From Pyrobaculum sp. 3827-6 (lineage in GTDB: Archaea > Thermoproteota > Thermoprotei > Thermoproteales > Thermoproteaceae): a stretch of DNA of 64,000 bases. Shown here piece after piece: positions 18,680 through 27,425 of the stretch. The stretch lies in assembly GCF_025641885.1 (NCBI RefSeq), contig NZ_JAOTQN010000002.1, positions 124,001 through 188,000 on the forward strand, read 5' to 3'. The translations under genes were made by a program, and so were the position numbers. How positions within the stretch are numbered: the first letter of the stretch is position 1; each line of letters begins with the position of its first letter. The notes beneath the pieces are model-generated. The model saw only the letters and a list, made by a program, of their open reading frames with translations. It ran no database searches and was not told the DNA's origin.

Positions 18680-20331
18680 CGTCGACTCTCTAAAATGTTC
18701 GATATAAAGTTAACTAGCTCGGCGGCGCTTGGCCTCTTTGACGGATCTATGCTCAGCATCTTTAGGACAATTTCATCCATCCATGCAGGTACGTCAGCGG
18801 CATAAGTACTTGGGGGCGGTATCTGGTAGCCATTTTCAATAAACACGTTGGGGTTTATGCCAGTCAGCGCCTCGTAGAGGACGCACCCCAGCGAGTATAT
18901 ATCAGAGGCGAACGACGCGGTGCCTTTCTTAACCTCAGGCGCTGCGTATGCGGGCGACATGAAGCTACTGTGCACATAGCCGCCAGTTACCACCTTGGCT
19001 ATTCCCATGTCGCCTATTTTCGCCGTCTTCCTGTCTCTTGTGAACATTATATTCTCAGGCTTTATGTCCAGGTGGACGATGTTGTGTTTGTGAATTTCGT
19101 ACAGCCCCTGGGCCAGCTGTTTAAACAACTCCGCCACCTGACCCGGCGGCAGCCTCTTCCGAGCCCTCAACAGATCTCTCAACGTCCCCCCCTCCATATA
19201 CTCTAGCAATATGTAGGGCGGGTTTTTCATGTATTGACGCATGTCGTTGTACCCCACCGCTGGTAGGTATACCTCAAAAGCCTTTACTACGTAGTCCGAC
19301 CTTATTTCGAGGTATCGGTTCATCTCCTGTCCAAAATGGCGTAAGATATTCTCGTCTCCAGCCAACGGCGCCCCGTAGTCGTCAAGGTAACGTAGTATCT
19401 TCGCGGCGTAGACACTCCCCTTCTGCCTCACCATTAGTACATAGCTAAATCCGCCTATCCCTAGGAGGCGGACCACCTTATACCGCCCGCCTAGCCAAGA
19501 ATATAGCCAGCCCAGAGGTGGCTGTGTGGAGAGGTAGAGAACCCTCTTATAAGTGAGTACATAAGATAGTAGAAGCATTAACGCAGGCAAAATGCTTAGG
19601 AATTCGCCTAGAGATGTGAGGTAGTAAACGTTGAAAGCCGCCAGAGCTATCACTAACATAGGCGACACGTCGGCTAAAGCCGCCGTGCTCCCAGCTAAGA
19701 CCGAAAGCGGTAGCGTGGACGTAGAGACTAAGGCAGACGCCGGTAATAGCAACCATAGGGATTTGCCGAGCTGGCTTGGCTTGAAGTTGTATAGGTACAT
19801 TAATGCAATTGAGTATCCTGTAAATACTTCATCAACTAAGTAATATATATAGATTAATATTTCATTCAAGTAGTATTCAATAAGAATTAATATTTTTATA
19901 AAAGTAACTATTGTAAATAAAATCATTGTTGCAATTCTATATCTATCGTAGATAGCCCTAAAGATTACCAACGTTATCAATGTAGTATTTAGGAGTAAGA
20001 CGGCGCCGTTACCTGAGAGGATTAGCAAAAGGGTTGACAGGATAATCCAACCTAGCACAGCGTAGTGTCTGTATGCAAACCAGCTGGCAAGTGAGGACAC
20101 AACAGCCGGAGTTGCCGCTAGCCAGCTATCCACCACTGCTAGAAAGAAGAAGAGATATAAGTATACGTGTAGTAGACGTAAACTGCTTAATGTATTTAAC
20201 CTACCAATCGTGTCTGGTCTGTGCTTTTTGATAGATATGGCAGACCTTTCCAGAAGCTTAGGTACGTGGTTAATGACGAATGTAACTATAACTGTGTCTT
20301 CTGCCACTTTGAGGGTCAGTTGAGGCGCCAA
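18676..20331 (-). CDS. Membrane-anchored eukaryotic-type Ser/Thr protein kinase (start uncertain)
   Basis: The last 271 residues are a Hanks-type kinase. It has a Gly loop LGIGGFSYVLMV, YAAKIL with the ATP Lys, HLDIKPENIMF as catalytic loop (Leu in place of Arg of HRD), IGDMGIAK as the metal loop (DMG for DFG), and YAAPE. The N-terminal half is a row of about seven hydrophobic helices with short loops, so the kinase is held at the membrane. The longest frame starts at TTG 20331 but would run 111 bp antisense into moaA. GTG at 20136 is the next in-frame start and would cut the first helix. The true 5' end is therefore open. The FHA gene follows with a 4-nt overlap. Confidence 0.85.
   Translation of the reverse strand: MAPQLTLKVAEDTVIVTFVINHVPKLLERSAISIKKHRPDTIGRLNTLSSLRLLHVYLYLFFFLAVVDSWLAATPAVVSSLASWFAYRHYAVLGWIILSTLLLILSGNGAVLLLNTTLITLVIFRAIYDRYRIATMILFTIVTFIKILILIEYYLNEILIYIYYLVDEVFTGYSIALMYLYNFKPSQLGKSLWLLLPASALVSTSTLPLSVLAGSTAALADVSPMLVIALAAFNVYYLTSLGEFLSILPALMLLLSYVLTYKRVLYLSTQPPLGWLYSWLGGRYKVVRLLGIGGFSYVLMVRQKGSVYAAKILRYLDDYGAPLAGDENILRHFGQEMNRYLEIRSDYVVKAFEVYLPAVGYNDMRQYMKNPPYILLEYMEGGTLRDLLRARKRLPPGQVAELFKQLAQGLYEIHKHNIVHLDIKPENIMFTRDRKTAKIGDMGIAKVVTGGYVHSSFMSPAYAAPEVKKGTASFASDIYSLGCVLYEALTGINPNVFIENGYQIPPPSTYAADVPAWMDEIVLKMLSIDPSKRPSAAELVNFISNILESRR
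20193..20200 (+). promoter_or_regulatory. TATA-like box of moaA
   Basis: TATTTAAC lies 21-28 nt upstream of the GTG start of moaA at 20221. Read on the other strand (GTTAAATA), the same block could also serve the kinase gene, in which case kinase translation would start downstream of it. Confidence 0.5.
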
Positions 20332-21153
20332 GGCAAGGGCTTAACGGCTGAGGACTATGGTTTTGTTACGTCGGTGTTCAAATCGCTGGGGGTCTCCGAC
20401 TTCAAGATTACCGGCGGCGAGCCTCTTCTGAGAAGCGACTTAGATCTAGTAATTTCGAATATTGCTAAGAGCGGGGCGGTGGTTACGTTGACTACAAACG
20501 GCTACTTGTTGAGAAGGTGGATTGATAAGCTACATGCGGCGGGGCTGAGGAGAATCAACGTGTCGGTGCATGTCGCAGATCCTGAGAGATACTCAAAAAT
20601 CGCCGGCGTGCCGCCCGGCGCTTTTCACGAAGTTTTAAGGGGCCTCGTCGAGACTAGAAACAGGGGTATTTCGCTTAAGCTAAATGCCGTGGTGATGCGC
20701 GGAATAAATACAGATAGAGAAAGCATAAAGGGATTGATAAGACTTGCAACATCCCTTGGGGCATCTCTCCAGTTTATTGAACTAATGCCAAGTGGGTCAG
20801 GCGTCAAGATCTTTGACGATTACTACGAGCCCATAGAGACCGTGGTGTCTATCATTGAAGAGCTGGGGGGTAGACCAGTGGGGGTGAGGAAGGAACTCCA
20901 TAATAGGCCTCTCTACGCAGTGGCCGGAGTAACAGTCGAGTTGATTAAGAACTTCAATAACCCCACTTTCTGTAGCGGGTGCACTACTATGAGGTTGACA
21001 AGCGACGGCAAGTTAAAGACGTGTATATACGCCGAGCCAGCCGTCGATCTGTTGCCATATATAAAGACGCGCGACGTCGAAGGCTTGGTTTACGCCGTAC
21101 GCCAAGCGCTTGCAAAGAGAGAGCCTAAATTCAAGCTCTACTCCTCCTCGTAG
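20221..21153 (+). CDS. moaA: GTP 3',8-cyclase MoaA (molybdenum cofactor)
   Basis: 310 residues, a radical SAM enzyme that makes 3',8-cyclo-GTP, the first step of molybdopterin synthesis. The N-terminal 4Fe-4S motif is CNYNCVFC (C-x3-C-x2-C) and KITGGEPLLR is the GGEP SAM motif. The C-terminal cluster is FCSGCTTMRLTSDGKLKTCI, which binds the second cluster and GTP. The GTG start has a TATA box at the leaderless distance. The next gene, convergent by 16 nt, is a ModE-like regulator, and a MoaC-like gene is at 26694, so molybdenum/tungsten genes cluster loosely here. Confidence 0.95.
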   Translation: MLFDRYGRPFQKLRYVVNDECNYNCVFCHFEGQLRRQGKGLTAEDYGFVTSVFKSLGVSDFKITGGEPLLRSDLDLVISNIAKSGAVVTLTTNGYLLRRWIDKLHAAGLRRINVSVHVADPERYSKIAGVPPGAFHEVLRGLVETRNRGISLKLNAVVMRGINTDRESIKGLIRLATSLGASLQFIELMPSGSGVKIFDDYYEPIETVVSIIEELGGRPVGVRKELHNRPLYAVAGVTVELIKNFNNPTFCSGCTTMRLTSDGKLKTCIYAEPAVDLLPYIKTRDVEGLVYAVRQALAKREPKFKLYSSS

Positions 21154-21548
21154 TATGGGATCTCCTCCTCGTCTCTGCTGGGCTTAGCAACATATTGCTC
21201 AAGATTAGACAACAGCTCCGAGAACCGCCTTTCCCAAGCCGCCGCCACCTGCTCGGCCTCCTTGCTCATAGCTTCGTAGTAGCTCAGGAGTAGCTTGCCC
21301 ACTTCTGTGAGCTCCGACACGCCCCTCTCTTTGCCCCCCCGCCTCGACTCCACAAGGGGGACGCCTAGGGCTTCCTCAAGCTTCTTGATGTAGGTCCAGA
21401 TAAACTTGTAGGAGTAGCCGAGCCTCCTAGCGGCTGAGGCTATGGAGCCCGTCTCCTCCAGAGCCTTAAGAATGTTGTAAATGCCGGGCCCCATTATCTC
21501 CTGTCCGTCTTTGTCTATCCATATGCGCATCTTTATCTTAACAACCAC
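21138..21548 (-). CDS. ModE-like winged-helix regulator
   Basis: 136 residues. PGIYNILKALEETGSIASAA, RRLGYSYKFIWTYIKKLEEA and GVPLVESRRGGKERGVSELT form the ModE/LysR-type winged helix found in molybdate-responsive regulators. No molybdate-binding (MOP) domain follows; the C-terminus is an acidic helical tail (DEEEIPYYEEE). Thus it may bind DNA without sensing molybdate itself. It is convergent with moaA and overlaps it by 16 nt. Two starts are possible, GTG 21548 and ATG 21530; each has a TATA-like block at a suitable distance. Confidence 0.85.
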   Translation of the reverse strand: MVVKIKMRIWIDKDGQEIMGPGIYNILKALEETGSIASAARRLGYSYKFIWTYIKKLEEALGVPLVESRRGGKERGVSELTEVGKLLLSYYEAMSKEAEQVAAAWERRFSELLSNLEQYVAKPSRDEEEIPYYEEE

Positions 21549-26367: not shown

Positions 26368-26697
26368 GTGTCTTGTCCCAAGTGCGGCTCTAAAGACGTG
26401 ATGTTGCTCCCCTCCAACGAATATGTGTGTAAGAAATGTGGCCATAGGTGGCCAATGCCGCAGCCAGATTATACGTGGATAGAGGTGGAGATAAAAAAAG
26501 CGAAGCTTTTCGAAAAGTATATCGACGCGCCTGTAGATAGCTGTGAGGAGTTGATATCCCAGCTTCTAAAAGAGCTTGACGAGAAAAACGCGAGGTTGCT
26601 GGCCGCTAAAATCCTACTGCAGAGAGCCGAGAGGCGTAAGACGACTCCGGCAGAGCTGAAAAAACTGTATGACGATGCAGAAAGGTGTTTTCAATGA
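26368..26697 (+). CDS. Small zinc-ribbon protein of unknown function
   Basis: 109 residues from GTG 26368, with a TTTATAGC box about 20-29 nt upstream. The N-terminus SCPKCGSKD and [10 protein letters not shown] form a C-x2-C...C-x2-C zinc ribbon. The remaining ~70 residues are helical and charged ([20 protein letters not shown]). I do not recognise a named family. Its TGA overlaps the ATG of the MoaC-like gene (ATGA), so the two are translated together and may work together. Confidence 0.85.
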
Positions 26698-27425
26698 TTG
26701 TTGACGTTTCTAAAAAACCAGACGTCTATAGATATGCGAGAGCTTCCGCAAGCGCCTCAGTGCAGATATGCAACACAGCCGCCGCGGTGAGAGCCGCCGT
26801 TGTGGCCAGTAGATACCTCCCGTTTCTGCACCCCCTCCCCCTCACAGCGTCGGCGTGGTGTAAAGACGGTAGGCTATACGTAGAGGGGTCTACCGAGTGG
26901 CAGACAGGCGTCGAGATGGACGTCCTCTTTGGCGCCCTAGTAGGCTTAATTGGGTCTGGGGCTGTGAAGATAGAGGACTTGGCAGTAGAGATAAAGCTAA
27001 AAAACTTGGCGCAGGCGCTGAGCGAGGCGGCGCTTACAGAGACGGCCCTTGTGAGAGAAGGGGGTTTAACGGCCTCTGCCTACGGGGTGATGAAGATGAA
27101 GAATTACAACGTGGTGAGGAGTCCCGTGGAGAAGGGCCACCCCATCTACGCCGCGCAGACGGCGGCGGCTCTCAACGCCAAAAGACTGTGCGAACTTATA
27201 GGAGGGCCCTGTCCCTCTATACAACATCTCAAGATAGATATAGACGTCAGAGAGAGCGTCGAAGTTGGCGTGTCTATAAAGGCGCGGGACTTCACGCCAG
27301 CGCCTGAGGCGTTGTTTGCAGCTGGCGTGGCCCTCCTCACGATATGGGACATGGCGAAGAAGTATGAAAAAGACGAGAGTGGTCAATATCCCAACACATA
27401 CATCAAGTTGCTACGTCTGGAGTAG
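26694..27425 (+). CDS. Tandem, split-motif MoaC-like protein (putative cyclic pyranopterin phosphate synthase)
   Basis: 243 residues from ATG 26694 (ATGA overlap with the gene before). Ordinary MoaC is ~150-160 residues with an HPL motif, TGVEME, then YDMCK. Here the first half has [15 protein letters not shown] (His46) and TGVEMD (71-76) but nothing like YDMCK. The second half has [20 protein letters not shown] (147-166) and [12 protein letters not shown] (216-227; Asp219, Lys222), while its HPL and GVEME sites read PCPSIQHL and APEAL. So two MoaC-like units appear fused, each keeping half of the catalytic set. MoaC makes cPMP from 3',8-cyclo-GTP. The start MIVDVS matches MoaC N-termini; a longer frame begins at 26685. 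Confidence 0.75.

Follow-up and report, generated by a model that had tools for sequence, protein, structure and literature searches.

In a 64,000-nucleotide stretch of Pyrobaculum sp. 3827-6 DNA (referred to as the window), one gene on the forward strand (26694–27425, stop included) encodes a protein of 243 amino acids (aa) in which two MoaC units follow each other in a single chain. The conserved residues of ordinary MoaC are divided between the two units, and by this division the fused chain very probably carries one complete active site, in contrast to the two of the usual pair. We give a probability of about 0.86 to the reading that this chain is the only cyclic pyranopterin monophosphate (cPMP) synthase of the cell, a pseudo-dimer that arose by moaC duplication and fusion and works through a single composite site. 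The translation is counted from the ATG at 26694; a GTG at 26685 could equally serve as the start codon.

MoaC is an enzyme of molybdenum/tungsten cofactor synthesis. In its ordinary form, two identical chains make a dimer and three dimers make a hexamer, with two equivalent active sites per dimer interface. Each of these sites combines one residue set of chain A with another set of chain B.

Two MoaC units in one chain

The N-terminal unit spans approximately residues 1–111 (26694–27026), and the linker together with the C-terminal unit occupies 27027–27422, both on the forward strand. The whole protein matches the Pfam MoaC family (PF01967) with 72.4 bits. Scored separately, the N half (1.4e-6, 28.8 bits) and the C half (27066–27422; 1.1e-12, 48.6 bits) each exceed the cut-off of 27 on their own. 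The first-pass annotation of this DNA had proposed a duplicated and fused MoaC and had set a separate profile check of the halves beforehand; this check found two MoaC units, and both halves also match the MoaC fold. Moreover, a profile built from the N halves of the window gene and of 17 named loci (18 in total), all of which match Pfam MoaC, aligned to a single-unit MoaC with 99.7% probability over residues 10–154 of its 156. The NCBIfam MoaC equivalogs, whose profiles span one unit, score below their cut-offs (NF008999, 93.1 bits versus 171; TIGR00581, 65.9 versus 141.5), because the conserved set of the fused genes is divided between two halves.

The full-chain AlphaFold2 model, based on a 21-sequence alignment, has a mean predicted local distance difference test (pLDDT) score of 95.3 and a predicted template modelling (pTM) score of 0.93, and its secondary structure displays two units in succession, each containing four longer strands. 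A separate model of the N half (pLDDT 90.4) superimposes on 2ohd_A with Z 15.8 and a root-mean-square deviation (rmsd) of 1.9 over 104 aligned residues (chain 5–146), while unrelated folds score Z 6.0 and lower. On the strength of this match and the profile alignment, we see a near-whole MoaC fold in the N half, which looks like the entire fold without the loop of Lys51 and without the outer section of its long helix. Residues 115–243 of the model, representing the C half, align with 2ohd_B over 126 residues (Z 13.0, rmsd 2.4), and the C-half helix 203–225 bears E205, D219 and K222. Residues 13–243 also match the tandem fold of YkoF (1s99_B), but at Z 7.3 this lies beneath the trusted level and was set aside.

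Division of the conserved residues

Conserved positions are given in E. coli MoaC numbering. The N half of the window gene contains HPLPLT, in which H46 (26829–26831) takes the His77 position, and TGVEMD (E74, M75 and D76 at 26913–26921), in which E74 and D76 take the Glu112 and Glu114 positions; K101 (26994–26996) takes the Lys147 position. It lacks the WDMxK segment with Asp128 and Lys131. The C half contains NAKR (K163 at the Lys67 position, 27180–27182) and WDMAKK, whose DMAK stretch (27348–27359) places D219 and K222 at Asp128 and Lys131. The EKGH lysine (K147 at the Lys51 position, 27132–27134) is also found in the C half and is gone from the N half. PCPS replaces the His motif of the C half and TPA-PEAL replaces the Glu motif, whereas the Glu114 position is retained as E205. 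The Lys147, Arg26 and Lys21 positions are likewise split between the halves. The motif pattern first read from the letters, with HPLPLT and TGVEMD but no YDMCK-like motif in the first half, and an AAKR-type lysine motif (here NAKR) and WDMAKK but no His or Glu motif in the second, is thus what the gene displays.

The same division occurs throughout the fused loci. In a survey of 61 genomes we found MoaC in 54, fused in 42 and as one unit in 12. The residue table covers the 42 fused loci, of which 40 N halves are readable (the frames of L031 and L046 are broken); for Asp128, Lys131 and Glu114, 40 C halves are readable (L053 and L054 are broken). All 40 N halves keep His77, Glu112 and an Asp at position 114, and none has Lys51 or Asp128. 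Conversely, Lys51 and Lys67 are present in 42/42 C halves, Asp128 and Lys131 each in 40/40, and Glu112 in none. Position 114 is Glu in 38/40 C halves. The Lys67 position is lost from Pyrobaculum-type N halves. The five active-site residues Lys51, His77, Glu112, Asp128 and Lys131 never occur together in one unit and are complete only across both halves, whereas the ten single-unit proteins in the table keep all seven positions.

For trees and column counts we used 29 of the 42 fused loci, dropping 13 that were near-copies or had incomplete halves, and compared them with 28 single-unit proteins (10 from the 12 survey loci with one unit and 18 from a further single-unit set; L010 and L012 were excluded from the tabulation). 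The Lys147 position is Lys in 28/28 singles, 29/29 N halves and 0/29 C halves. Glu112 is likewise found in 0/29 C halves, and His77 is absent from 20/29. A column was regarded as near-invariant when invariant in at least 27/28 singles, and as kept when retained in at least 26/29 halves. Of the 43 near-invariant columns of ordinary MoaC, 15 are kept only in the N half, 17 only in the C half, 11 in neither and 0 in both.

Treating columns as exchangeable, the overlap expected at the 0.9 cut-off is 5.2 and that observed is 0 (P = 2.6e-4), and over eight pairs of cut-offs P ranges from 2.8e-6 to 0.022, with a single column in common at the loosest keep cut-off and zero elsewhere. When each of the 8 genera is represented by a single sequence, P is 5.5e-4 and 8.6e-6. 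Tests of single genes are weaker (P = 0.012 for the window alone and 0.012 for L052 alone). In the control, singles compared with singles gave no comparable partition of columns. The partition is not a matter of chance, since it is fixed in 42 fused loci and absent from this control. The median ratio of nonsynonymous to synonymous substitution rates (dN/dS) is 0.14 for each half, from 17 and 16 usable pairs of 45, most pairs being saturated; judged by coding sequence, purifying selection on the two halves is similar.

A predicted composite active site

For M. tuberculosis MoaC2, into which GTP was positioned by superposing the T. thermophilus complex, the contacts described are Lys62, Asp137 and Lys140 from chain A and His88 from chain B, and the Lys67 position is described as binding across dimers (PMC3602415). 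By alignment, Lys62 is the KGD lysine, His88 is the CH histidine, and Asp137 and Lys140 are the Asp and Lys of DMxK. The A-type residues are all located in the C half of the fused protein and the B-type residue in the N half, and therefore it is the other site that has lost its residues. The interpretation of divided active sites, put forward in the first-pass annotation, is supported to this extent, as the division fits the chain assignment given in PMC3602415; a single working site and pseudo-dimer geometry are its predicted consequences. The model adds a geometric argument. The Glu112/114 and Asp128/Lys131 positions are approximately 20 Å apart on one helix, and would therefore belong to different sites in a two-fold dimer. 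From the division and the helix geometry we predict that Glu112, Lys147 and Arg26 group with His77. More broadly, Arg26, Lys21, Glu112 and Lys147 are predicted to act alongside His77, and the predicted partners of Lys51, Asp128 and Lys131 are Lys67 and the EKDxxGxYP segment.

We propose that an ancestral moaC was duplicated and the copies fused in tandem. After fusion, the two sites would have become genetically distinguishable, and one could be kept whole while the other decayed. In the resulting chain, the N half would supply His77, Glu112 and probably Lys147 and Arg26, and the C half Lys51, Lys67, Asp128 and Lys131. The halves presumably pair within the chain, which would then be a pseudo-dimer built around a single composite site. 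Three chains with three sites would be expected in the full assembly, versus six chains and six sites in ordinary MoaC. We infer the activity, the geometry of the composite site, the within-chain pairing and the number of chains from the sequences.

The rest of the pathway is consistent with such a role. MoaA makes the substrate of MoaC. The source genome, 99.99% complete, has matches to MoaA, MoaE and three MoeA, together with enzymes of the molybdopterin and AFOR families (molybdo- and tungsto-enzyme families). A second, ordinary moaC, which the first-pass annotation had named, together with a profile result of one MoaC unit here, as counting against its reading, was not found in it at E 0.001, and the profile searches gave two units. 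We predict that the fused MoaC is a cPMP synthase because the pathway is present, needs one, and no other candidate was found; its product would be the sole cPMP synthase of the cell.

A composite site could instead form between chains, from the N half of one and the C half of another, in a domain-swapped or ring-like arrangement. The residue data require both sets together and are silent on whether they share a chain, and at L046 and L031 the halves lie in separate frames, which would allow separate chains if real. However, the single-chain model is confident across both halves, and the linker in the window protein is short, some 10–20 residues. We regard this arrangement as unlikely.

It is much less likely still that the C half catalyzes alone in an altered way, with the N half serving a structural or regulatory purpose and taking no part in catalysis. 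The C half does hold Lys51, Lys67, Asp128 and Lys131 and scores higher in Pfam. Yet the Glu112, Lys147 and His77 positions that C halves wholly or mostly lack are invariant in N halves, and such selective retention of catalytic columns is unexpected for a structural remnant.

Joining of adjacent genes by a frameshift in annotation or sequencing, a cause raised for such fusions in PMC11237513, would agree with the frame breaks at L031, L046, L053 and L054, but we give it almost no weight, since 38/42 fused loci have parts of both halves in one unbroken frame, including single-contig genomes (L022 and L026, counted among the 38, have an incomplete N end), and the halves share one residue division and are too eroded to pass for a pair of ordinary genes; for the window gene, conservation across species in the 42 loci rules this artefact out.

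Several observations weigh against the pseudo-dimer with a single composite site. Lys131 persists as Lys in 20/40 readable N halves. His77 remains in 19/42 C halves, all of family f2, and the dead site is thus unevenly eroded; in these C halves, the Pro after the His is changed. Position 114 is Asp in N halves and mostly Glu in C halves, and either chain may supply Glu114 to the living site. The column test assumes independence, and because neighbouring motif positions are correlated, its P values exaggerate the significance. In addition, the fold searches match single units, so that the dimer-like pairing of the halves stays a deduction. Finally, a genome of family f3 in the same order (G020, contamination 5%) carries MoaC as an ordinary single unit, L007.

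Distribution and origin of the fusion

The fused loci, one in each of 42 genomes, come from heat-loving archaea (the Pyrobaculum and Thermoproteus group) and belong to families f1 and f2 and to one genome of f7 (G048), all with the same residue division. Named carriers are Thermoproteus, Pyrobaculum oguniense, Pyrobaculum sp. WP30, Vulcanisaeta, Caldivirga and Thermocladium. Single-unit MoaC occurs in families f3 to f6 and in f8, where L010 and L012 are longer chains resembling MoaC-MoaB. The single MoaC of G020 may represent a pre-fusion state, a replacement or a misplaced contig. At L046 (3716–4455, reverse strand, in the single-contig genome G016), the fused moaC is split between the halves into two overlapping frames, for which a sequencing error, decay or two real chains may account.

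Elsewhere in the phylum, candidates in G309, G128, G241 and G352, with two to three matches each, turned out to be separate genes, fragments or broken copies. Among the matches listed for 398 phylum genomes there were no further fusions, although degraded ones could escape such a search.

In the tree, N halves form one clade with support 100/100, and the Shimodaira–Hasegawa-like approximate likelihood ratio test (SH-aLRT) gives 99.9 without the catalytic columns. The C halves group at 35/30; constrained together they give p = 0.821 in the approximately unbiased (AU) test, consistent with one clade. The N half of the G048 locus (L052) groups among the N halves. Its two halves as sisters are nevertheless compatible with the data (AU p = 0.424), and the G048 fusion could be a separate event; a single origin is thus unproved.

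Erosion also differs among lineages. The best identity of a C half to a single is 0.48–0.54 in three f2 examples, versus 0.40 and 0.44 in two of f1, and 0.41 in L050 (f2, genus g8). By sequence comparison, most f2 proteins are less eroded than those of f1, and together they form a graded series. In genus g8, we notice that the fused MoaC of L049, L050 and L051 (genomes G032, G036 and G042) is highly diverged, with the Glu114 position also gone from the C half of L049 and L051, and that two more g8 genomes, 87–88% complete, gave zero MoaC matches in the survey.

We think it somewhat more probable than otherwise that the whole order passed from a two-site homodimer to a one-site pseudo-dimer, with 32 of the 43 invariant positions divided without overlap and the eroded site free for a new role.

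Neighbouring genes in the window

A gene for a zinc-ribbon protein lies directly upstream of the fused moaC (26368–26697, forward strand; PF08271, 2.6e-7). Its stop overlaps the moaC start at 26694–26697, which suggests coupled translation of the two genes. Further upstream, moaA encodes the GTP 3',8-cyclase (20221–21153, forward strand; PF04055, 4.9e-25, and PF06463, 2.1e-23); it scores 315.9 bits against the moaA_archaeal cut-off of 325.25 and exceeds the cut-off of NF001199. Adjoining moaA is a gene with a ModE-type DNA-binding domain (21138–21548, reverse strand; TIGR00637, 76.2 bits, below the cut-off of 98.5), whose product is likely a molybdate or tungstate regulator. Outside the window, the MoaE match of the source genome (contig C2, 194271–194615, reverse strand) lies in an open frame of 275 aa. 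A MoaD-MoaE fusion is reported in Thermoproteales (PMC11237513), and the length of this frame is sufficient for one.

Implications and comparison with known systems

If the composite site is as proposed, the fused MoaC represents an unusually clean case in which two equivalent sites became one after duplication and fusion, and less and more eroded stages coexist in one archaeal order. Even with no ligand structure, the division would indicate which chain supplies each conserved MoaC residue. The two half-sites of the fused protein would be separately mutable, an option that a homodimer does not offer, and its eroded second site may serve, for instance, MoaA docking or regulation.

Pepsin-type aspartic proteases and monomeric herpesvirus dUTPases are likewise fused pseudo-dimers or pseudo-oligomers with fewer sites than the homo-oligomer, though their folds and reactions are unrelated to MoaC.

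Fusion of MoaC with itself has been described as arising independently and multiple times, without restriction to particular taxa and possibly through frameshifts (PMC11237513, mSystems 2024). There, cluster 625.1 is likewise an archaeal MoaC-MoaC fusion, treated in one sentence in which complementary loss goes unmentioned. In the present data, by contrast, the fusions of Thermoproteales cluster with one another and share a fixed division, and what was printed as a possible frameshift effect is a maintained enzyme design. In our search of openly licensed papers, divided active sites in MoaC were not reported; the existence of the fusion has been outlined before, and the divided site appears to be undescribed in that literature. 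The MoaC-MoaB and MoaC-MoaE fusions (PMC11237513; NCBIfam NF002947) also place MoaC in a longer chain, but they join different enzymes of the pathway, unlike the MoaC-MoaC fusion.

Ordinary MoaC (PF01967; E. coli 1ekr, 4pya and 4pyd; S. tokodaii 2ohd) shares its fold with both halves, and its conserved set is matched by the halves summed, with MoaA here in the same window. Unlike ordinary MoaC, the fused protein has two units per chain, each without part of the set, and one site per pseudo-dimer is expected.
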